The notes beneath the pieces are model-generated. The model saw only the letters and a list, made by a program, of their open reading frames with translations, searched no databases and was not told the DNA's origin. A DNA stretch of 43,624 nt from the NCBI GenBank assembly GCA_019241535.1, contig JAFAWX010000206.1, positions 1-43,624 of the forward strand, written 5' to 3'. Source of the stretch: Acidobacteriota bacterium. GTDB taxonomy: Bacteria; Acidobacteriota; Terriglobia; Terriglobales; Acidobacteriaceae. Made by a program: the position numbers and the translations under genes. Every line of letters begins with the position of its first letter. The stretch's first letter is position 1. Below are positions 9,189 to 21,965 of this stretch, in pieces.

Positions 9189-11282
9189 TTAGGAAACCTG
9201 TCGGGCGGAAATACTAATACCCAACTTCTTCATGCGGGAAATGAGCGTCGTACGTTTTAGGCCGAGGCGGGCGGCGGCGCCACCTGGGCCGCCTACCCGC
9301 CCGTTAACTTCCCTGAGAACACGTACGATCTCCTCTCGCTCGCCGAAACTCCTGTTTCGAATCATCGCTGGTTGGGCAGAACCTTTCTTCAACTCGTCAT
9401 TTGGGAACTGAAGGACCGTCCCGCGTGTCAGGATCACGGCTCGTTCCACCAGGTTTTCCAGCTCCCGAATGTTTCCCGGCCACTGCCATCGCGTAAGCTT
9501 CGCTATGGCGGCCGCGGGAATCGTTTCAATTCGTTTCTCCAGGTGACGTGCGTGCTTCTGGGTAAAGTAATGAACGAGCAACGGAACGTCTTCCGGCCGC
9601 TCACGCAATGGTGGAATGCGAATCGGAAAGACATTCAGGCGATAGAAAAGATCGCTGCGAAACTGCCGATCGTCGACCATCTTTTCCAGATCGCGGTTCG
9701 TGGCAGCCACAAGCCGCACGTCCACACGCTTGGTGTACGCGCTCCCCAGACGTTCAAACTCGCGTTCCTGCAGTGCGCGCAACAACTTCGGTTGAATTTC
9801 CGGAGGAATGTCGGCCACCTCGTCCAGGAATAGGGTGCCCCGGTCGGCCAGCTCCAAGCGCCCCAGTTTCTGGGATATGGCGCCGGTAAACGCTCCTCTT
9901 TCATGTCCGAAGAGCTCGCTCTCGAGAAGTCCGGTAGGAATCGCCGCGCAATTCATCTTTACGAACGTTCGGTCCTTGCGGCGGCTGCGCTCATGAATGG
10001 CGCGGGCAATTAATTCCTTGCCGGTGCCTGTCTCGCCCAGCAGCAACACCGTCGAGTCGCTGGTTGCCACGGTTTCTACCATCTGCAATACATGTCGGAG
10101 CACGGAACTCTGGCCAACGATGCCCTCGAAATCCATCTCTCCCCGGATTTCGTCTTCGAGATAGAGCTTCTCCTGAGCAAGCTTCTCCTTCAATTCTGCG
10201 ATTTCCTTATACGCAAGTGCGTTTTCGGTAGCAATGGCGACCTGACGCGCGATCTGGCTCAAGAACTCGATATCGTCGTTTGTGAATGACTCTTCGGCAA
10301 ACCGCGACAGCGCCAACACCCCAAGCACGCGGTCTTTGCTGACGAGGGGCAGGAAGCAACCGGATCGCAGCCCCTCCCGCATGGCCGATGCAGAGCAGGC
10401 TTCCGGACAATGAGCTTGGATTTGCGATTGGCTACGCAGCTCCACTTTCCCGCTGCGAAATGCGGCACCCAGGGGCGAATTGTCCATCGGGATCAGGCTT
10501 TCTTCAGTGAGAAATCCCTTGCTTTCCGGAAAATCCAGCGCATAGACGCGGAAATGATTGCCGTCCGCCTCCGGCAATGCCACTCCCGCCGCATCGCACC
10601 TCATTACTCTACGAACATTGGCGGCGACCTCGCGAAGCAGGTCGCGAAGCTGTAGATTCGAAACCACGCGGTTGGTGAGGTCGAGCACAAGCTCCAGCCG
10701 CTCGTTTTTGCTCTGAAGCTCTGCCTGTACCTGGCGTGACAGATCCAGGTGCAAGGCATTGTCGATAGCCAGCGCAAGGTGGTCTGCCACCAGCGACAAA
10801 AAGCGCAGCTCGTCGTTCGAATATGCTCCCACCTGGGAAATGCCCATGGCAAACACTCCCAGCCGCCGGTGCACAGTTGTCAGGGGGAGCACGCAGGAGG
10901 AGCGTATATCGTACTCTGCCAAGTACTCGCGCAGCCGCGGGTACCGCGACTCACGCAGCCAGTCGTCTACGATCAGCGGCTTCTGATTTGTAAACACCCA
11001 GCCGGTCGGCGTCTCGTCGGCTCGGAAATCAGGCAATTGCACCTCATGGTTCCTGCCCGGGGCATGGAACATCCGCCACTGCACGGCCTGAGTTACGGGA
11101 TCGAGAAGGATCACGAGTACGTAGTCAAAGGCAATGAATCTCTTCAACTCCTCGGCAAACCGCTCGCGAAAGCTTTGGATGTCGCGGTATCCGGAGATCG
11201 CCGTGATCGCTCGAAGAAGATCTTCGTAGCGCGGCAGGGGATTACCGGGAGAGAGTCCGGCTGATCGCACGCTGGCGGCCAT
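9189..11282 (-). CDS. Sigma-54-dependent activator with two GAF domains
   Basis: A 697-residue bacterial enhancer-binding protein. Two GAF sensor domains (about 20-175 and 190-355) are joined by a short coiled coil (about 356-390) to a sigma-54-interacting AAA+ domain. Walker A is GETGTGKE at 416-423, the sigma-54 contact loop GAFTGA is intact at 463-468, Walker B LFLDEV is near 484-489, and the sensor/arginine-finger region [20 protein letters not shown] lies near 541-560. A C-terminal Fis-type helix-turn-helix occupies about 660-690. It therefore should bind DNA upstream of sigma-54 promoters and drive open-complex formation in response to a small-molecule or redox signal sensed by the GAF domains. 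It is divergent from a TauE-type permease, and its closest relative in the window is the 1074-residue regulator beyond that permease. The ligand is unknown. No receiver domain is present. Confidence 0.93.
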
Positions 11283-12608: not shown

Positions 12609-15600
12609 ATGTACAATCACGCAATACAGTCCGCAACCGCCACCATGCATTCCGGGCCAATCGGCGACGAAGGACAAGCCGAGCACTACCGAGCACTGTT
12701 GAAGATCAATAATGCTCTGATCTCTGGGCTGACTCAGCATTCTCTCCTCAGTTCTGTTTCCAACGCCTTGCGGTCGGTTGTCGAATTCGACGCCGTGGCC
12801 CTGATGCTTTATCTTCCCGAGCAAAATACATTCCGCATTCTCGCCCTTGAAGGAATTACCCGCCACTTTCATGTTGGGCAAGAGATTGGGCGCGCCGACA
12901 GCAGCGTCGGGTGGGTGTTCGATCACAAACGCTACATACTGCGGCGCAATCTTGCCACCGAATTGCAGTACGAAAACGAGCGACGACTGCTCGATGAGGG
13001 CATGCGTTCTCATTGTGTTGTGCCCTTAATTGTGAGGGGGGAAAGCATTGGTACTTTAAATCTGGCAAGCAAAAAGGACCATCAGTATTCCGAGAAAGAT
13101 GCCTCGTTTCTCCAGGAGGTAGCCGCCCAAGTTGCGCTCGCGGTGCAAAACATGAAGGCTTACGAGGAGATCGCCACGTTGAACGCGAAGATCTCACGGA
13201 GCGCCCAGCAGACGCGCACTCTTCTCGAAATCAATAACGCCATTGTGACCAAGCTCACGAAGGATGAACTCCTGCATGCTATCTGCCAGGCAATGAAGCG
13301 CGCCGTTCGTTTTGATGAAATTGCACTCGTTTTACATGAGCCGGATGCGGATCTCCTCCGTGTGGTCGCGCTCGAAGGCAGCTTTTCGTCGGCACATTTC
13401 AAAGTTGGTTCTGCTGTAAACCAGGGTGGCATCAGCCGATGGGTATTTGACCAACGACGTATAGCCCTGCGAGGAGACCTCGAACAGGAAGCCCAAACTT
13501 TTCCTGAGAAACGTGCGTTCAAGGAAGGCGTTCGATCGCTTTGCGCTCTTCCGCTGATTGTGCACGACCGACCAATCGGAGTCCTGAGCATCGCAAGTGC
13601 GTTGCCGAATCAATACGCGGAGGAAGACGTCGGCTTTTTGCGAGAAGTAGCCAATCAGGTGGCGATCGCGGTCGCCAACATGGAGTCGCACGAAGAAATC
13701 GCTTCTCTAAACGCCCAGGTGTCGCGCACGGCGGAGCAAACCCGAACCCTTCTCGAGATTAATAATGCCATTGTTACCAAGCTGACACAGGACGAACTCC
13801 TGCACGCCATATGTGAGGCTACTAAACGCGCGGTTCCTTTTGACGAAGTAGGGCTCATCCTGCATGAAACGGAGTCAGACATCTTACGTGTGGTCGCGAT
13901 CGAGTGCACCATACCCTCGGAATATTTCAAGGTGGGCTATGCCCTCGATCGGGACGGGCCGGCGGGTTGGGCTTTCGACCAGCGCCACCTCTTCTTACGC
14001 AAAGATCTTGAACATGATGCGCAAACCGCCACCGAGAGGCGTGTCTTGGGGGAGGGTATTCGATCGATTTGTGCGCTGCCGCTGATCGTCCATGAGCGCT
14101 GCTTAGGGGTGCTCAGCGTGTGCAGTGTCACGCGAAATCAGTATTCGGAGGAGAACGCTGCATTCCTGCAAGAGGTTGCCAACCAGGTGGCGATCGCGGT
14201 TTCCAATATGAAATCGCACGAGGAAGTGGCGGCGCTCAATAGAAAGGTTGCCCTCGCTGCGGAGCGCTCACGCACACTTCTTGCAATCAATAATGCCGTC
14301 ATTACGAGTCTCAGCCGCGAGGCTCTTCTGCAGTCAACGTCCAGCGTTCTACGCGGGGTTATCCAGTTCGATCGATGCGCATTCACCATTTATCAGCCCC
14401 AAAAGGACAACTTCCGCTTTCTTACGATGGACAGCGAAGTGCAATCGGATTATTTTCGTCCGGGGTTGGAGTTCGAGCGGAACGATAGTGTTGCCGGCCG
14501 CGTACATCACGAGCTTCGAGGGGCTCTTCGCCGCGATCTTGAAAAAGAGCAACAATATTTTAATGATCGCCGCCTCCTGGCAGAAGGCATCAGGTCATAT
14601 TGCGTAGTTCCTATGGTGGCCGGCGGAAGGTGCATTGGAACGCTGAATGTGGGCAGCAAAGCAAAGAACCAGTATTCCGAGCAGGATGCTGAGTTTCTGC
14701 AGGAGGTAGCTACGCAAGTGGCGCTGGCGGTCGAGAACATGCAAGCATTCGAAGAAATAAGCGCCTTAAAGACTCGTGTTGAAGCGGAGAATGTATACCT
14801 GCAGGAGGAAATCCTTCGCGAACATAACTTTGATGAGATCGTCGGAAATAGCCCGGCGCTGCTGGACTTGCTGAGGAATGTGGAGGTCATTGCTCCGACC
14901 GACGCCAGCGTTCTCCTGTACGGCGAGACCGGTACCGGGAAAGAGCTACTGGCTCGCGCCATACACTCCCGGAGTCGGCGTTCGGCGCGCGCCATGGTGA
15001 CGGTAAACTGTGGAGCGATTCCCTCTGGATTGGTGGAAAGCGAGTTGTTCGGCCACGTCAAAGGCGCCTTTACCGGAGCGCTGCAGAACTCTATCGGGCG
15101 CTTTGAGCTGGCCGACGGCAGCACCCTGTTTCTGGATGAAGTTGGAGAACTTCCTGCGGAGACCCAAGTGAAGTTATTGCGAGTGCTGCAGGAGCACGAG
15201 TTCCAGCCCGTAGGTAGCAGCCGAACCAAGAAAGTTGATGTGCGGACGATTGCCGCTACCAATAGAAATCTGCAGGAGGATGTTCGCGCCGGCCGCTTTC
15301 GTTCCGATCTCTTCTATCGTCTCAATGTGCTCCCCCTCCGGGTGCCGGCTCTTCGTGAACGCCGCGTCGACGTTCCGGAACTGGTTCTTTTTTTTCTCGA
15401 ACGCGCATGCCACAAATTCGGTAGAAAGATCATGTCCGTATCGCAAGAAACCATGAAACACCTGGTGGCCTATGAATGGCCGGGTAACATTCGAGAACTG
15501 CAAAATGTCATCGAGCGTGGAGTCGTACTTTGTCGTGGTTCGGTTCTGGCAATGGGTTCAGACCTCCTGCCGGTTGCAGACCGCCCTTCGGTTCTGACCG

Positions 15601-15833
15601 AGTCTCCTGCGCCCGATATTCCCAGCAAACCCTTGGAATCGTCGAACCATCCGCATCAATCGAGCATTGCGCGTACGCTCGAAGCCATCGAGAAAGAGCA
15701 TATCCTTCGAGTGCTTGATAGCACGGGTGGAATCATCGACGGACCAAAAGGAGCGGCACAGATACTGGCTCTCCATCCGAGCACGCTGCGCGCTCGCATG
15801 AAGAAACTTCACATCCGCCGATCTGCCCACTAA
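12609..15833 (+). CDS. Sigma-54-dependent activator with four tandem GAF domains
   Basis: A 1074-residue enhancer-binding protein. Its N-terminal two-thirds consist of four GAF domains in tandem (about 30-182, 205-360, 381-537 and 558-712), each opening with a near-identical LLxINNAxxT/S helix and ending with an F-L-x-E-V-A-x-Q-V-A-x-A-V helix. A coiled-coil linker leads into the AAA+ domain: Walker A GETGTGKE at 772-779, intact GAFTGA at 819-824, Walker B LFLDEV at 840-845, and an R-finger region near 897-915. A Fis-type helix-turn-helix closes the protein (about 1030-1068). GAF2 and GAF3 are especially similar, implying recent internal duplication. The ATG at 12609 has no good ribosome binding site, and a second ATG lies at 12645. 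It probably integrates small-molecule signals to activate sigma-54 promoters. The gene content downstream suggests, but does not prove, that nearby genes are targets. Confidence 0.92.
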   Translation: MYNHAIQSATATMHSGPIGDEGQAEHYRALLKINNALISGLTQHSLLSSVSNALRSVVEFDAVALMLYLPEQNTFRILALEGITRHFHVGQEIGRADSSVGWVFDHKRYILRRNLATELQYENERRLLDEGMRSHCVVPLIVRGESIGTLNLASKKDHQYSEKDASFLQEVAAQVALAVQNMKAYEEIATLNAKISRSAQQTRTLLEINNAIVTKLTKDELLHAICQAMKRAVRFDEIALVLHEPDADLLRVVALEGSFSSAHFKVGSAVNQGGISRWVFDQRRIALRGDLEQEAQTFPEKRAFKEGVRSLCALPLIVHDRPIGVLSIASALPNQYAEEDVGFLREVANQVAIAVANMESHEEIASLNAQVSRTAEQTRTLLEINNAIVTKLTQDELLHAICEATKRAVPFDEVGLILHETESDILRVVAIECTIPSEYFKVGYALDRDGPAGWAFDQRHLFLRKDLEHDAQTATERRVLGEGIRSICALPLIVHERCLGVLSVCSVTRNQYSEENAAFLQEVANQVAIAVSNMKSHEEVAALNRKVALAAERSRTLLAINNAVITSLSREALLQSTSSVLRGVIQFDRCAFTIYQPQKDNFRFLTMDSEVQSDYFRPGLEFERNDSVAGRVHHELRGALRRDLEKEQQYFNDRRLLAEGIRSYCVVPMVAGGRCIGTLNVGSKAKNQYSEQDAEFLQEVATQVALAVENMQAFEEISALKTRVEAENVYLQEEILREHNFDEIVGNSPALLDLLRNVEVIAPTDASVLLYGETGTGKELLARAIHSRSRRSARAMVTVNCGAIPSGLVESELFGHVKGAFTGALQNSIGRFELADGSTLFLDEVGELPAETQVKLLRVLQEHEFQPVGSSRTKKVDVRTIAATNRNLQEDVRAGRFRSDLFYRLNVLPLRVPALRERRVDVPELVLFFLERACHKFGRKIMSVSQETMKHLVAYEWPGNIRELQNVIERGVVLCRGSVLAMGSDLLPVADRPSVLTESPAPDIPSKPLESSNHPHQSSIARTLEAIEKEHILRVLDSTGGIIDGPKGAAQILALHPSTLRARMKKLHIRRSAH
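12696..14760 (+). repeat. Four in-frame tandem repeats encoding GAF domains (period ~530 nt)
   Basis: Repeat units begin near 12696, 13221, 13749 and 14280, a spacing of 525-531 nt. The unit starts at 13221 and 13749 are alike at DNA level (CTTCTCGA followed by an ATNAATAANGCCATTGT pattern, then AAGCTNAC and GANGAACTCCTGCA), as are the ends of units 2 and 3 (GTAGCCAATCAGGTGGCGAT versus GTTGCCAACCAGGTGGCGAT). This supports recent duplication inside the gene. Such repeats could expand or contract by recombination. Confidence 0.75.
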
Positions 15834-16220
15834 CCGTTGAGGGCAGCCCTTGGGTGCGGCCATCGAAGACCCGACGGACCACCAAATATTGAGGATGGCT
15901 GCTGTCTAGCTTGAGCGATGTGTCGCACATAACCATCACATTTTCAAGTACATACCTGCCATGAGCCACATTCTGGGGGTTTGGCCTTACGCATGCGATT
16001 ACCCACCGCGTAGGAGAGCTGCACTGCCCCAATTACTCCCGCTGGGGCGGTGAACTCGGTCGTCTTCCGCCCCGCGCGGTGCAGCTAGACTAGCGAGCTC
16101 GAACTTAGGAACTGCGCTCCGCCAAGTGAGAAGGCGCCTGGAATGGTTGTGGCTGATCAGGTGGCACCAGCTCTTCAGGTCGTGGTTGACCAAGAATAGT
16201 TTGCGGTTTATGGAAGCGAT
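15834..16220. other. Gene-free stretch upstream of the STAS gene
   Basis: About 390 nt with no supportable gene. A TGGCAC hexamer at 16162-16167 resembles a sigma-54 -24 element, but the required GC 10 nt after the GG is absent (see rejected items). No terminator hairpin with a T-tract was found after the regulator gene. Confidence 0.35.
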
Positions 16221-16544
16221 TTGCCAATTCTCGAGATTGTTGAGCGAAGGGAAAACAGATACTTGCAACCACATATTCTTAAGATTTCAACTCTGGAGTC
16301 TTCGCGATTTGGTGAGACGTTCCAACTCGAGGGTAACCTGGGCGGCGCTTGGGTCGATGAGCTTCGGCGTTCTTGTAATCGCGTGCTGTCAGAAGGTAGG
16401 CGCCTGACACTGGATTTGTCAGGAGTGTCTTTTGTCGACCGCGATGGCGTTGGCTTACTCAGAACTCTTAAATGCGCGAATGTGGAATTAAGAAACTGTT
16501 CCCCTTTTATTGCGCTACGGCTGGAAGCAAACGGCGTGGAGTAA
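16221..16544 (+). CDS. STAS-domain protein (anti-sigma-factor antagonist fold) lacking the phospho-serine
   Basis: A ~107-residue single-domain STAS protein. The diagnostic beta-strand/helix segment LTLDLSGVSFVDRDGVGLLR lies at residues 62-81. In SpoIIAA-type antagonists this segment contains DSSG, whose first serine is phosphorylated by the partner kinase. Here it reads DRDG (residues 73-76), so the phosphoacceptor is replaced by arginine and control by an SpoIIAB/RsbW-like kinase is unlikely. No ATG is available: the frame opens with TTG at 16221 (GGAAG 4 nt upstream), and a second TTG at 16263 is possible, so the N-terminus is uncertain. It ends 42 nt before an OmpR-type regulator, with which it is probably co-transcribed. 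No cognate anti-sigma factor is in the window. Confidence 0.8.
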   Translation: MPILEIVERRENRYLQPHILKISTLESSRFGETFQLEGNLGGAWVDELRRSCNRVLSEGRRLTLDLSGVSFVDRDGVGLLRTLKCANVELRNCSPFIALRLEANGVE

Positions 16545-16586
16545 TTCCACAATGAAAATCCTGTTCCGGCAGAATGGAGTGCGACG

Positions 16587-17327
16587 GTGAGTGTCGCGGC
16601 AACTGCGTTACTCGAAATGCCGAGATTGCTATCGTGGCGGGTTCTCGTGATCGAAGACGACAGTGCCACAACCAGAACGCTGCAGCAGCTTTTCGAGTCT
16701 GAGGGCTACGGCATAGAGATTGCCCGCAGCTGGACGGAGGGTTTACGGCTGTTCCACGATACGCCATCGTCGATGGTTGTCATGGGGCTTCATGCGGCGG
16801 ATACCTGTTCCCCACAATTGGTCGAAGACCTGCGAGTCGCCAACGCATCGGTGCCTATAATTGTTCTCGGCACAGCCTCCTCCGCCGTGGAGCGCGCCCT
16901 CTTTCTGGAATCAGGGGCCGACGATTATGTGGTGAAGCCCTTTAACGCGAGAGAGTTGTTGGCGCGCGTCCGGGCCGCCATGAGGCGGTCCGAAAGGTAC
17001 GATCGGGACATCTTTACTTTTGGGGATGTCCAAGTGGATTTTCGAAAGATGGAGGTGCGGCGTCTGGGTAGCTTGATTCCGCTTACAGCTCAGGAATTCA
17101 AAGTGCTGAAGTTCATGACTCGAAATGCCGAACGGGCAATATCGCGCGAGGAGCTGCTCAACCGCGTGTGGGGCTACCACAACTATCCGACGACACGCAC
17201 CGTGGATAATCACATCTTGAGGCTGCGACAAAAACTTGAACCGCGCCCGTCTCTGCCTGTACATTTCCTGACAATCCACTGCATTGGGTATAAATTTGTA
17301 CCGCGAAGAGTTCCGTTATCGATGTGA
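16587..17327 (+). CDS. OmpR/PhoB-type response regulator with non-canonical receiver
   Basis: A 246-residue two-domain regulator. The receiver spans about 18-134 and the winged-helix DNA-binding domain about 142-240 (conserved LTAQEFKVLKFM, ISREELLNRVWG, RTVDNHILRLRQKL and GYKFVPR segments). In the receiver, the acidic pocket (E23, D24, D25), switch threonine T96 (VLGTA) and lysine K117 (VVKPF) are kept. The phosphorylated aspartate at the end of beta-3 is missing: the strand reads VVMGLHAAD, with Gly67, codon GGG, where Asp is expected. The protein therefore cannot be switched by classical phosphorylation and may dimerise constitutively or respond to a ligand or partner. The GTG start at 16587 has GGAG 7 nt upstream. 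No histidine kinase is adjacent. Its immediate upstream neighbour is a STAS protein that also lacks its phospho-site. Confidence 0.9.
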   Translation: MSVAATALLEMPRLLSWRVLVIEDDSATTRTLQQLFESEGYGIEIARSWTEGLRLFHDTPSSMVVMGLHAADTCSPQLVEDLRVANASVPIIVLGTASSAVERALFLESGADDYVVKPFNARELLARVRAAMRRSERYDRDIFTFGDVQVDFRKMEVRRLGSLIPLTAQEFKVLKFMTRNAERAISREELLNRVWGYHNYPTTRTVDNHILRLRQKLEPRPSLPVHFLTIHCIGYKFVPRRVPLSM

Positions 17328-18430: not shown

Positions 18431-20206
18431 GTGACAAAGAACACCATACTCCGAGACTCGATAGAGGCGGCCCAATGGAGTGCGGCTATCTCGTTCCTCG
18501 GCGCGCTGGAAGCAACTAGTGCTGCCCTCGAGCTTGCCAAGCTCTCCTCGGAACAGCAACAGATACTTTTTCGCCATTTACCCCTGGATCTTGCTGCCGC
18601 GATCCTTCCTCATTTTCGGTACTACGACCAGTACGTGCTTCTTCATTCCCTCCCAGTTAGCGAAATGAGAATCTTGGTTGACAAGCTGAGCCCTGGCGAT
18701 CGCATGAGCTTTTTCGACGAACTGCCAGAGGAAGCATGGCAACGCCTCATGGACGAACTTTCCGGTGCAGCGGTCAAGGACAATGGCACTAACGGCGCCC
18801 CTACGGACCTCTTTGCCGGGGCAGCAGCTCCGACCCGTCCAGAAGCAAGAACTGCGGACCCGCCCGAACAAGCAACCGTGCTCGAGGCAATCATCGAGGC
18901 TCATCAGTTGGAGAAACGGTACCAGTTGCCGGACGGAAAGGAAGTGCAGGTCATCGCTCCGATGGATCTGGCGATTGAATCGAATACGATTCTTGCGCTT
19001 CTGGGGCCGTCTGGATCTGGTAAATCAACGCTCTTGCGCATGCTGTCAGGCTTAGTGGAACCGACAGCGGGAACAGTGCTGTGGCATGGAACCTCGGTAG
19101 ATACTGCAAAACGAAACATTGGCATCGTCTTTCAGAGCTTCGCGCTTTTTCCCTGGCTAACTGTGCTTGAAAACGTCGAAGTTCCGCTCGAAGCCAAACG
19201 CCTTCTGCACACCACCCGACATCATCGAGCACTCGAAGCGCTGGCGATGGTGGGACTGAAGGGATTCGAAAACGCTTATCCGAAAGAACTTTCTGGGGGA
19301 ATGAAGCAGAGGGTTGGCCTTGCCCGTGCTTTGGCGGTGGAGCCCGAAGTTCTGTTCATGGATGAACCATTCTCCGCCTTGGATGTGCTCACCGCCGAGA
19401 ACTTGCGTCGCGAACTGGTCGAATTATGGATCGATCACCGCATCCCGACACGAAGTATCTTTCTTGTCACACACAATATTGAAGAAGCGGTTCTGCTGGC
19501 GGACCGGGTTGTCGTTCTGGGTAAAAATCCGGCAAAAATTCGGGCCGATTTCCGCATCTCTCTGCCTCTGCCGCGGGATAGAAAGTCGGCGGAGTTTCTC
19601 CTTTACGTGGATTACATATACAAAGTCATGACCCAGCCCGAGCTGGAAATAGGGCGCTTGACCAGGTTGCCGACGCTTAGCCGACCAGCGTTTCAGGCGC
19701 TGCCACACGCAACCGCAGGCGGTCTGGGAGGCCTGCTTGAATTCCTCGATGACCGCGGAGGGCAGGAAGATCTCTATCATCTCGCGGAAGAGTTGTTGAT
19801 GGAGGTAGACGACCTGTTTCCCATTGTGGATGAGGCTACGATGCTGGGTTTTGCTCATTCAAGCCGGGGGGACGTGCAGATAACTCCAGCAGGCAAGGAA
19901 TTCGCGGAAGCGGATATTTCAACCCGCAAGAAGATTTTTCGCGATGCCGTCCTCGGCCACATTACGCTCATTCAACAGATTCGCAATGCGCTGGAAAGAA
20001 AATCGGACCACACATTACCCGCGGAGTTCTTCCGCGACGTATTGGACGAGCATTTTCCGCCGCAAGAAGCACAGCGTCAACTCGATACCGCGTTGAACTG
20101 GGCACGCTATGCCGAAATCTTCAGCTACGACTCCCAGAGTGACCGGCTGCTTTTAGACGAAGCCTCGCATATTGCCCATCCCGGCAAAGATCATTCCTCT
20201 GTCTAA
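18431..20206 (+). CDS. ABC transporter ATPase with MgtE-N-like N-terminal and AAA-associated C-terminal domains
   Basis: A 591-residue three-part protein. Residues ~18-110 form an all-helical domain resembling the MgtE-N/FliG-like superhelix (repeating [19 protein letters not shown] and [16 protein letters not shown] segments). Residues ~155-400 are a nitrate/taurine-type ABC ATPase with complete motifs: Walker [10 protein letters not shown] (192-200), Q-loop Q235, signature LSGGMKQR (287-294), Walker B VLFMDEP (307-313) and switch H348. Residues ~410-580 match the C-terminal AAA-associated domain found on some nitrate/sulfonate-type ATPases. The gene starts with GTG at 18431, and its stop is 4 nt before the permease ATG, so the two form an operon. 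It probably powers anion or metal-related transport with an added N-terminal regulatory module. The N-terminal assignment is by pattern and less certain than the ATPase. Confidence 0.9.
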
Positions 20207-20210
20207 AATA

Positions 20211-21965
20211 ATGGCCCAGCCGCCAATCTCCCGCTCACTCATTCGGCCAGCCGGGTGGGGTAACGTTCCCCCCGGCGTAACCTCGTTCATTCGAGAGTTG
20301 CCGATCGTGCTGGGTGGCATGGGTTTGTTTTACAGCGTCATCACTCTTGCTCGGTACTGGTCAAGTCCGGTTACGGCTTCAGCCGAGATCAGCCTGATTC
20401 CCGCGGCATTGCCTAAATACGCGCTTTTTTCAGTGTTACGAATCGCAGTCGCCTATTTTTTCAGCTTCGTTTTCGCTCTCGCTTACGGGTACATTGCCGC
20501 TTACAACCGGAAGGCTGAGCAGTTGATGGTTCCATTGCTAGATACGCTGCAATCAATCCCCGTCCTCAGTTTCCTTCCACCGGTGATGATGTCGATGGTG
20601 GCCCTGTTTCCCCGGCGAAAGTTGGGCGTGGAGCTTGGATCAGTGCTATTGATCTTTACGGGCCAGGTTTGGAACATGACATTTAGCTTTTATTCGTCCC
20701 TGAAGAGCATCCCGACGGAAATGCGGGAAGCGGCATTAGCCTATGGCTTGCACCCTTGGCAGCGGTTCTGGCAACTCGAACTGCCGCATGCCGCCATCGG
20801 CCTGATCTGGAATTCCATGATGTCTGTGGCTGGGGCGTGGTTTTTCTTGATGGCTTGCGAAATGTTCGTCCTGGGAGCTCGAGATTTTCGCCTGCCTGGC
20901 CTTGGATCTTATTTGCAAACCGCAGCCAATGCTGGCGACATTAAAGCACTCTGCTGGGGAGTGGCGACGATGATAGCGGTTATTGTTCTGATCGACCAAT
21001 TGATTTGGCGTCCGGTAATTGCCTGGGCGGAGAAATTTAAACTCGAACAGATAGCATCATCGGAGATTCCGCGATCGCCCATATTGTCTCTGTTACGAAG
21101 TTCACGCCTGCTGCCATTCTTCTCGCGTTATCTGATTTTCCCCATCCGGGAACAATTGAACATGCACTTTGCGGGGGCATCCCCAGAACGCTCACCGATG
21201 GTTCGTTGCAACGGATTGTTCCAATGGACTTTCGGAGGGCTCGTGATCGCTGTACTCGGGGGAATCTTGTATGCCGTGGCAAGGCTGCTGGAAACGCTTG
21301 TGAGGATCTCGCCTTCGGAGCTGCGGCAACTACTTGGGGGCGCCGCCGCCACTTTCCTGAGGGTGGAAATTGCTCTTTTACTTGCCGGGTTGTGGGCTGT
21401 TCCGGTTGGAATCACTTTAGGTTTGCGGCCTCGCCTTTCAGCCATTGCCCAGCCAATTGCGCAAATCGCCGCGTCAGTACCGGCCACGGCATTATTCCCC
21501 GTTATTCTCCTGGTTTTGGTCCGGGCGGGTGGCGGCCTGGGCACCGGCTCGATTCTCTTGCTGCTGCTCGGTACGCAGTGGTACGTGCTTTTTAATGTCG
21601 TCGCAGGAGCCATGGCAATTCCGGCAGACCTGAAGGAGGTTTGCAATGTTTATGGTTTGAGAACGACCGAGCGCTGGCGGCGGCTCTTCCTGCCGGGCAT
21701 ATTTCCGTATTTGATCACTGGGCTGATTACCGCCTCGGGTGGTGCGTGGAACGCGAGTATTGTTGCAGAGTACTTCCACTTTCGCGGTCAAACCATGTCC
21801 ACAATAGGACTGGGAGCTATCATCAGCCAAGCCACGGATAACGGCAATTTTCGGCTTCTTTTGTCAGCCACGGTCGTAATGGCCATCATCGTGGTATCCA
21901 TCAATCGCTTAGTCTGGCGGCGTCTTTATATCTTGGCTGCGACTCGTTTCAAGTTAGAGGCCTGA
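20211..21965 (+). CDS. ABC transporter permease, two transport domains fused in one chain
   Basis: A 584-residue membrane protein carrying two copies of the SsuC/TauC/NrtB-type binding-protein-dependent transport domain. I start at the ATG at 20211, 4 nt after the ATPase stop; the frame also opens with TTG at 20172, overlapping that gene. The two coupling (EAA-type) loops are visible: MREAALAYGLHPWQRFWQLE in the first half and LKEVCNVYGLRTTERWRRLF in the second. Each half has about five to six hydrophobic segments, and a hydrophilic linker lies near residues 285-335. Such a chain can supply both membrane halves of one importer with the preceding ATPase. No periplasmic substrate-binding protein lies in the window, so the substrate and even the direction of transport are open. 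Confidence 0.9.
   Translation: MAQPPISRSLIRPAGWGNVPPGVTSFIRELPIVLGGMGLFYSVITLARYWSSPVTASAEISLIPAALPKYALFSVLRIAVAYFFSFVFALAYGYIAAYNRKAEQLMVPLLDTLQSIPVLSFLPPVMMSMVALFPRRKLGVELGSVLLIFTGQVWNMTFSFYSSLKSIPTEMREAALAYGLHPWQRFWQLELPHAAIGLIWNSMMSVAGAWFFLMACEMFVLGARDFRLPGLGSYLQTAANAGDIKALCWGVATMIAVIVLIDQLIWRPVIAWAEKFKLEQIASSEIPRSPILSLLRSSRLLPFFSRYLIFPIREQLNMHFAGASPERSPMVRCNGLFQWTFGGLVIAVLGGILYAVARLLETLVRISPSELRQLLGGAAATFLRVEIALLLAGLWAVPVGITLGLRPRLSAIAQPIAQIAASVPATALFPVILLVLVRAGGGLGTGSILLLLLGTQWYVLFNVVAGAMAIPADLKEVCNVYGLRTTERWRRLFLPGIFPYLITGLITASGGAWNASIVAEYFHFRGQTMSTIGLGAIISQATDNGNFRLLLSATVVMAIIVVSINRLVWRRLYILAATRFKLEA

Follow-up and report, generated by a model that had tools for sequence, protein, structure and literature searches.

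A pseudo-receiver regulator and a serine-less STAS protein encoded beside a sigma-54 activator in Acidobacteriota

Described systems and the window pair

Several regulators of the OmpR type, including ChxR, HP1043, CosR, RitR, and GlnR, retain the receiver fold and the winged helix but have lost catalytic residues and have no kinase partner. The regulator described here shares these characteristics but, unlike the examples found in the literature, is encoded beside genes for a STAS protein and a sigma-54 activator. Pseudo-receivers make up approximately 6% of bacterial receivers, and their on/off control has been called a mystery (PMC12632262). Acidobacteria are among the phyla richest in receivers that lack the phospho-acceptor Asp, and Gly accounts for 11% of the residues that replace it (PMC4395418). 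STAS is not mentioned in either of these two pseudo-receiver reviews, and no description of a pseudo-receiver beside a STAS protein and a sigma-54 activator was found in the open-licence literature. Because pseudo-receivers are common and Acidobacteria are rich in them, the single parts of the locus are ordinary, and it is the recurring cassette that constitutes the new element.

For the STAS protein, the closest described relatives are the anti-anti-sigma factors SpoIIAA and RsbV. These are likewise single STAS domains with the same fold, and the family of the protein examined here is also tied to sigma factors, in this case through ECF sigma genes. In contrast to SpoIIAA and RsbV, it carries no phospho-Ser and has no adjoining gene for an anti-sigma kinase or PP2C phosphatase. 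Its TIGR00377 score (17.3) is far under the cut-off of 53.45. The SypA/SypE/SypG system of Vibrio fischeri also comprises a STAS protein, a response regulator (one that controls the STAS protein), and an activator of locus transcription (PMC10120452). However, SypA is switched via phosphorylation of Ser56 by the kinase/phosphatase SypE (PMC10120452), whereas the corresponding phosphosite here has no Ser, and the regulator, unlike SypE, is of a DNA-binding type and lacks a kinase domain. MlaB-type STAS proteins (STAS_2) exhibit weak sequence and fold similarity, but no MlaFED/mla genes are located beside the STAS gene and its product misses the NCBIfam MlaB cut-off (16.4 versus 90 bits).

The two genes are carried by a 43,624-nucleotide stretch of DNA from an Acidobacteriota bacterium, which is called the window hereafter. 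Its relevant features are the following.

12609..15833, + strand: sigma-54 enhancer-binding protein (EBP) with four GAF domains, an AAA+ sigma-54 activator domain, and a Fis-type HTH (Pfam)
16211..16225, + strand: candidate degenerate sigma-54 -24/-12 element, TGGAAGCGATTTGCC (GG-N9-GC, one base short; read in the sequence)
16263..16544, + strand: single-domain STAS protein (Pfam STAS; the ORF listing begins at TTG 16221)
16437..16448, + strand: DRDG motif, with Asp75 at the SpoIIAA phospho-Ser position (sequence and family column)
16587..17327, + strand: OmpR/PhoB-type regulator, pseudo-receiver plus intact winged-helix DNA-binding domain (Pfam, AlphaFold, PDB folds)
16785..16787, + strand: Gly67 codon GGG at the phospho-acceptor Asp position (sequence, VVMG67LH, and family alignment)
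16869..16871, + strand: Gly95 codon GGC at the conserved switch Ser/Thr position, a second catalytic loss (family alignment)

The STAS protein scores 26.0 bits with the Pfam STAS model (cut-off 22.6 bits). The top PDB fold matches of its AlphaFold model (mean pLDDT 86.6) are SpoIIAA and RsbV, and the MlaB fold is also matched. An initial annotation of this DNA had reported DRDG in place of the phosphorylatable motif, and the reading is correct: the sequence is VDRDGVG, and the Ser/Thr of D-x-S/T-G is absent. With these residues in place, phosphorylation at the SpoIIAA site of this protein is excluded. The conserved start is probably TTG 16263 and not TTG 16221. The former is likelier because the frame of the related locus G532:C538, whose STAS protein is 73% identical, has a stop just ahead of the same RYLQPHILKIS stretch. 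Residues 1–20 of the listed ORF are also modeled with low confidence.

The regulator matches Pfam Response_reg (PF00072) at 56.2 bits (cut-off 30.2) and Trans_reg_C at 81 bits (cut-off 26.2), and thus has the OmpR/PhoB architecture of a receiver followed by a winged helix. Its model (mean pLDDT 86.9) matches the folds of KdpE, MtrA, CosR, HP1043, RitR, and GlnR. Gly67 occupies the position of the acceptor Asp, just as first annotated. The accompanying claim that the rest of the pocket is kept holds for the E, D, and K residues but not for T96. When the receiver is aligned on the PIIVLSAxxD stretch, the Ser/Thr column corresponds to Gly95 and T96 is the T+1 residue. The positions DD1, DD2, D, T, and K are therefore occupied by E, D, Gly, Gly, and K, such that only three of the five catalytic residues remain. 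The receiver also lacks Pro at D+4 and Gly at D+8, and its K+2 residue is Phe. A protein that is recognized as a receiver and lacks catalytic residues is a pseudo-receiver as defined in PMC12632262. Without an acceptor Asp, this receiver cannot be phosphorylated through the usual chemistry, and neither the phospho-Asp nor the adjacent histidine kinase of a two-component system is present.

The Gly codon could in principle be an assembly or base-calling error, as the assembly is fragmented into 425 contigs. This origin is highly improbable. Two base changes separate GGG from any Asp codon, and Gly95 together with the missing D+4 Pro and D+8 Gly fits a receiver that is really degenerate, while the whole frame is intact.

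As originally annotated, the STAS and regulator ORFs are 42 nt apart, and no kinase, anti-sigma, or PP2C phosphatase gene is found near the pair among the surrounding ORFs of the window. The EBP gene, which is immediately upstream on the same strand and is a recurring neighbor of the STAS family, had gone unmentioned. Pfam detects four GAF domains, Sigma54_activat (231 bits), and HTH_8 in its product.

Kinase linkage and pocket loss in the receiver family

Relatives of the receiver were sought in the genome containing the window, 396 genomes of the phylum, 100 relatives, and 398 family genomes, and a tree was constructed from 80 relatives. Many of the sampled genomes are fragmented, and a missing neighbor may therefore be a contig end. 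All 64 full-length relatives that adjoin a kinase gene have an intact pocket (E/D-D-D-S/T-K). The same genome carries such an intact copy beside a histidine kinase on contig 134, and this copy is 55% identical to the window regulator. As judged from these relationships, the window regulator descends from a kinase-linked response-regulator family. Among the relatives without a kinase gene, seven have an intact pocket and nine, including the window regulator, have a broken one. Each of these nine retains exactly three of the five catalytic residues, and the two that are lost vary as follows.

Window: D and T lost
G532:C538: DD2 (Lys; IEKH) and T lost; acceptor Asp kept (LVLDLEM)
G084:C3, G662:C153, G438:C5, G502:C300: DD2 (His, His, Asn, Ser) and K (Ile or Val) lost
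G443:C95, G656:C171, G532:C188: DD1 and T lost

With two catalytic residues missing in each case, normal phosphorylation chemistry appears implausible for these proteins. The nearest row to the window receiver in the tree is the STAS-linked receiver of G532:C538 (support 100/99). Six other broken-pocket receivers form a second supported group, and G532:C188 represents a distant third. Constraining the eight receivers of the first two groups to one clade gives p = 0.34 in an AU test, and p = 0.10 is obtained for all nine together. Since neither constraint is rejected, the number of independent pocket losses is between one and three. Kinase adjacency and pocket state are associated by Fisher's test (5e-8, with relatedness ignored), and a phylogenetic pair test yields three to five pairs, too few to reach significance.

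Four of the broken-pocket relatives (G438:C5, G443:C95, G656:C171, and G502:C300) have no STAS gene beside them, although the G443:C95 locus is truncated by the end of its contig. This distribution suggests that pocket loss follows the absence of a kinase rather than the presence of STAS. The idea that STAS caused pocket loss is weakened by these four STAS-less pseudo-receivers and by the underpowered phylogenetic pair test. Two of the four, L202 and L299 (G443:C95 and G656:C171), have a V-D-D...G pocket and share a neighborhood with a PQQ-type dehydrogenase-like gene, with no STAS or ECF gene seen near. L170 (G398:C45), a candidate for a second Asp-less relative, proved to be an alignment artefact, as its sequence reads AMVLDLRLPGMSG.

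The initial annotation recommended looking for the same gene pair in other Acidobacteriota. The arrangement does recur, and with the phospho-chemistry lost, but the loss of Asp is not shared by the closest orthologous pair. It had also been argued that relatives with the Asp or Ser restored would indicate simple loss in this strain, and this outcome was half observed, in that G532:C538 has the Asp. A conserved loss of Asp is thereby ruled out. However, the G532:C538 receiver lacks a metal-binding Asp and the Ser/Thr, which indicates that the conserved feature is the loss of chemistry and not the loss of Asp.

A degenerate receiver might simply belong to a gene in decay. By this explanation, the duplicate copy of a response regulator was left without its kinase, after which its receiver drifted; the gene would now be disappearing beside a STAS neighbor that is incidental. 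The window and G532:C538 regulators are only 51% identical in the receiver half, compared with 79% in the DNA-binding half, and each lineage has lost different residues. Moreover, the pair was not found in seven other genomes of the same genus that were searched, and it is therefore patchily held. Despite these signs, decay is an unlikely explanation. The reading frames of all nine broken-pocket regulators are open. Receiver dN is well under dS in the two comparable pairs (0.038 versus 0.28 for G443:C95 and G656:C171; 0.12 versus 0.80 for G084 and G662), and by this measure purifying selection on the pseudo-receivers persists in both. In addition, the DNA-binding half is strongly conserved, the predicted fold is confident, and the window/G532:C538 orthologous pair has retained the STAS neighbor, the gene order, and the close spacing (under 60 nt in G532:C538) at a DNA identity of 67%. 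When 198 kinase-linked pairs with 75–80% identity in the DNA-binding half were examined, the minimum receiver identity was 63.5%. The value of 51% falls below all of them, which suggests that the receiver has been freed of constraint whereas the DNA-binding half has not. This pattern of constraint is thus what would be expected for a regulator that keeps its job without taking phosphate.

The STAS family and its recurring cassette

The STAS family was sampled as 61 non-redundant members from Acidobacteriota. Its phosphosite column contains Ala (17), Glu (11), Ser (9), Arg (8), Thr (4), Asp (3), and other residues, such that 48 of the 61 members have neither Ser nor Thr. Therefore, the absence of a phosphorylatable residue is common across the group and not a loss in the window strain. 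The possibility that DRDG is a phosphomimic conserved as such was ruled out, as Ala is the most frequent residue in the column and Asp occurs in just three of the 61 members. These findings do not support the original proposal that the two proteins lost phospho-control jointly: the lack of Ser is widespread in the STAS group, and the receiver pockets are broken at positions that differ among lineages.

A same-strand EBP gene is located upstream of STAS at 42 or more of the 61 loci, and an ECF sigma gene is located downstream at 20 or more. Both counts are lower bounds because neighbors were called by similarity to few query proteins and within 1.5 kb. Activators of these cassettes are of the GAF/PAS sigma-54 type, and the genes that may come after STAS are those for an ECF sigma factor, an OmpR regulator, or both. 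The order EBP, sigma-54 site, STAS, and in some cases ECF recurs across Acidobacteriota families (42 STAS loci, for example L254, L252, L265, L258, and L251). Such a cassette would be a common and apparently undescribed wiring from sigma-54 to ECF sigma factors in soil Acidobacteriota, and its description was not found in open-licence papers on STAS with ECF sigma factors, sigma-54, or Acidobacteria.

Sigma-54-like elements were scored by a simple consensus count and tested by base shuffling. An element with p < 0.05 is present within 300 nt upstream at 30 of the 42 loci with an EBP gene and at 6 of the 19 loci where none was found. These elements most commonly lie 28–45 nt before the STAS domain, as in TGGCACGCCGCTTGCC. 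Related cassettes have TGGCAC-N5-TTGC at the place corresponding to window positions 16211–16225. At this place, some 40 nt ahead of the probable start of STAS, the relatives have a good site and the window has the shortened candidate noted above. No full-spacing site before the window STAS gene is significant by the same count and shuffling (best p = 0.13). With the sole candidate one base short, a sigma-54 promoter in the window was dropped as an established feature. RpoN is encoded in the genome.

The window EBP shares 57% identity over 574 amino acids with its counterpart in the G084 STAS-receiver cassette, and 61% identity with that of G532:C188 in the AAA/HTH part. A second EBP of the window (9189–11282, - strand) reaches only 40% identity in the comparison with cassette EBPs. 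On the basis of these identities, the window and cassette activators are kin. Relative to the cassette, the window has the upstream EBP but not an ECF gene beside STAS, and neither an ECF sigma gene nor an ECF remnant was found in the window by tblastn.

Including the window, five loci were found in which an EBP or ECF gene, STAS, and a receiver occur together.

Window: activator-STAS-regulator
G532:C538: ECF-STAS-regulator, with a contig end before ECF
G084:C3 and G662:C153: activator-STAS-ECF-regulator
G532:C188: activator-STAS-regulator-ECF

All five combine an OmpR-type receiver that has lost two of its five catalytic residues with a STAS protein that has neither Ser nor Thr at the phosphosite. 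The regulator of G532:C188 was apparently recruited from a distant regulator lineage. This comparison backs the earlier suggestion of a switch that is independent of phosphorylation.

Two further arrangements were observed among the STAS genes. At L261 (253–1188, - strand; G650:C149), STAS and ECF sigma region 2 are encoded in one open frame of 312 codons, masked stretch included. This natural STAS-ECF fusion suggests a direct functional linkage. Together with the ECF genes that follow STAS elsewhere, it also suggests that a sigma factor is the original or older STAS partner. The same screen contained three classical DSSG-type STAS genes (L038, L040, and L041), each adjoined by a downstream receiver-PP2C (RsbU-like) gene with an intact pocket, in contrast to the Ser-less cassette.

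Possible modes of control

We favor, as moderately probable, the explanation that the window regulator is an OmpR-type pseudo-receiver captured by an EBP-STAS-(ECF) cassette and controlled by its synthesis, by partner binding, or by both. Control of active pseudo-receivers through availability or partners is documented (PMC12632262). The upstream GAF activator would sense a signal and set the amounts of STAS protein and regulator that are made. By analogy with ChxR, HP1043, and CosR, the regulator would bind DNA without phosphorylation. The STAS protein, whose SpoIIAA site offers no residue for a Ser kinase of the SpoIIAB type to switch, would serve the transcription output of the cassette as a constitutive module for protein interaction. 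In many cassettes this output would be an ECF sigma factor, and in the window it would be the pseudo-receiver. Direct binding between STAS and the receiver is the least certain step of this proposal.

It is quite possible, if short of probable, that dosage alone is decisive. In this scenario the regulator is constitutively active, its synthesis is set through the upstream sigma-54 activator, and the STAS protein serves something else. The adjacency of EBP and STAS genes and the sigma-54-like sites across the STAS family are consistent with such a mode, and synthesis, degradation, and sequestration govern constitutively active pseudo-receivers in the few cases documented (PMC12632262). However, the promoter evidence in the window is weak. 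Furthermore, Phe at K+2 biases CheY toward the inactive state (PMC12632262), and constitutive activity of the window receiver, which has this residue, is thus not assured.

Alternatively, the STAS protein might bind the pseudo-receiver directly as an on/off partner that replaces phosphorylation, a mode that was raised in the initial annotation and that we consider doubtful. The two genes are adjacent on the same strand, and this arrangement is kept in the orthologous pair. Likewise, each of the five OmpR-type receivers linked to STAS is a pseudo-receiver, even though one of them apparently came from a distant lineage, and STAS modules are known to bind protein partners in SpoIIAA, RsbV, and MlaB, whose structures are matched by the STAS model, and in SypA (PMC10120452). 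Nevertheless, four sister pseudo-receivers have no STAS gene nearby, many cassettes have an ECF sigma gene after STAS, and the sole fusion joins STAS to an ECF sigma factor. Shared transcription would explain the co-occurrence of the two genes equally well.

A broader proposal is that the captured regulator exemplifies partner switching without phosphate, whereby sigma-54 activators in Acidobacteriota drive a small, mostly Ser-less STAS adaptor that binds and gates the output encoded alongside, with ECF sigma factors (in many cassettes) and pseudo-receivers (in a few) being interchangeable. We regard this generalization as speculative and rather improbable. The family nevertheless offers related pseudo-receivers with a traceable ancestry, including kinase-linked sisters and, within the window genome, a paralogue whose pocket is intact, as well as the recurring partners STAS, ECF sigma factor, and sigma-54 activator. 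What replaces phosphorylation should therefore be testable with a handful of genes.

Downstream of the pair, window positions 18431–20206 and 20172–21965 encode a nitrate/sulfonate-type ABC transporter, whose ATPase is extended at the C terminus and whose permease seemingly has two membrane domains per chain.
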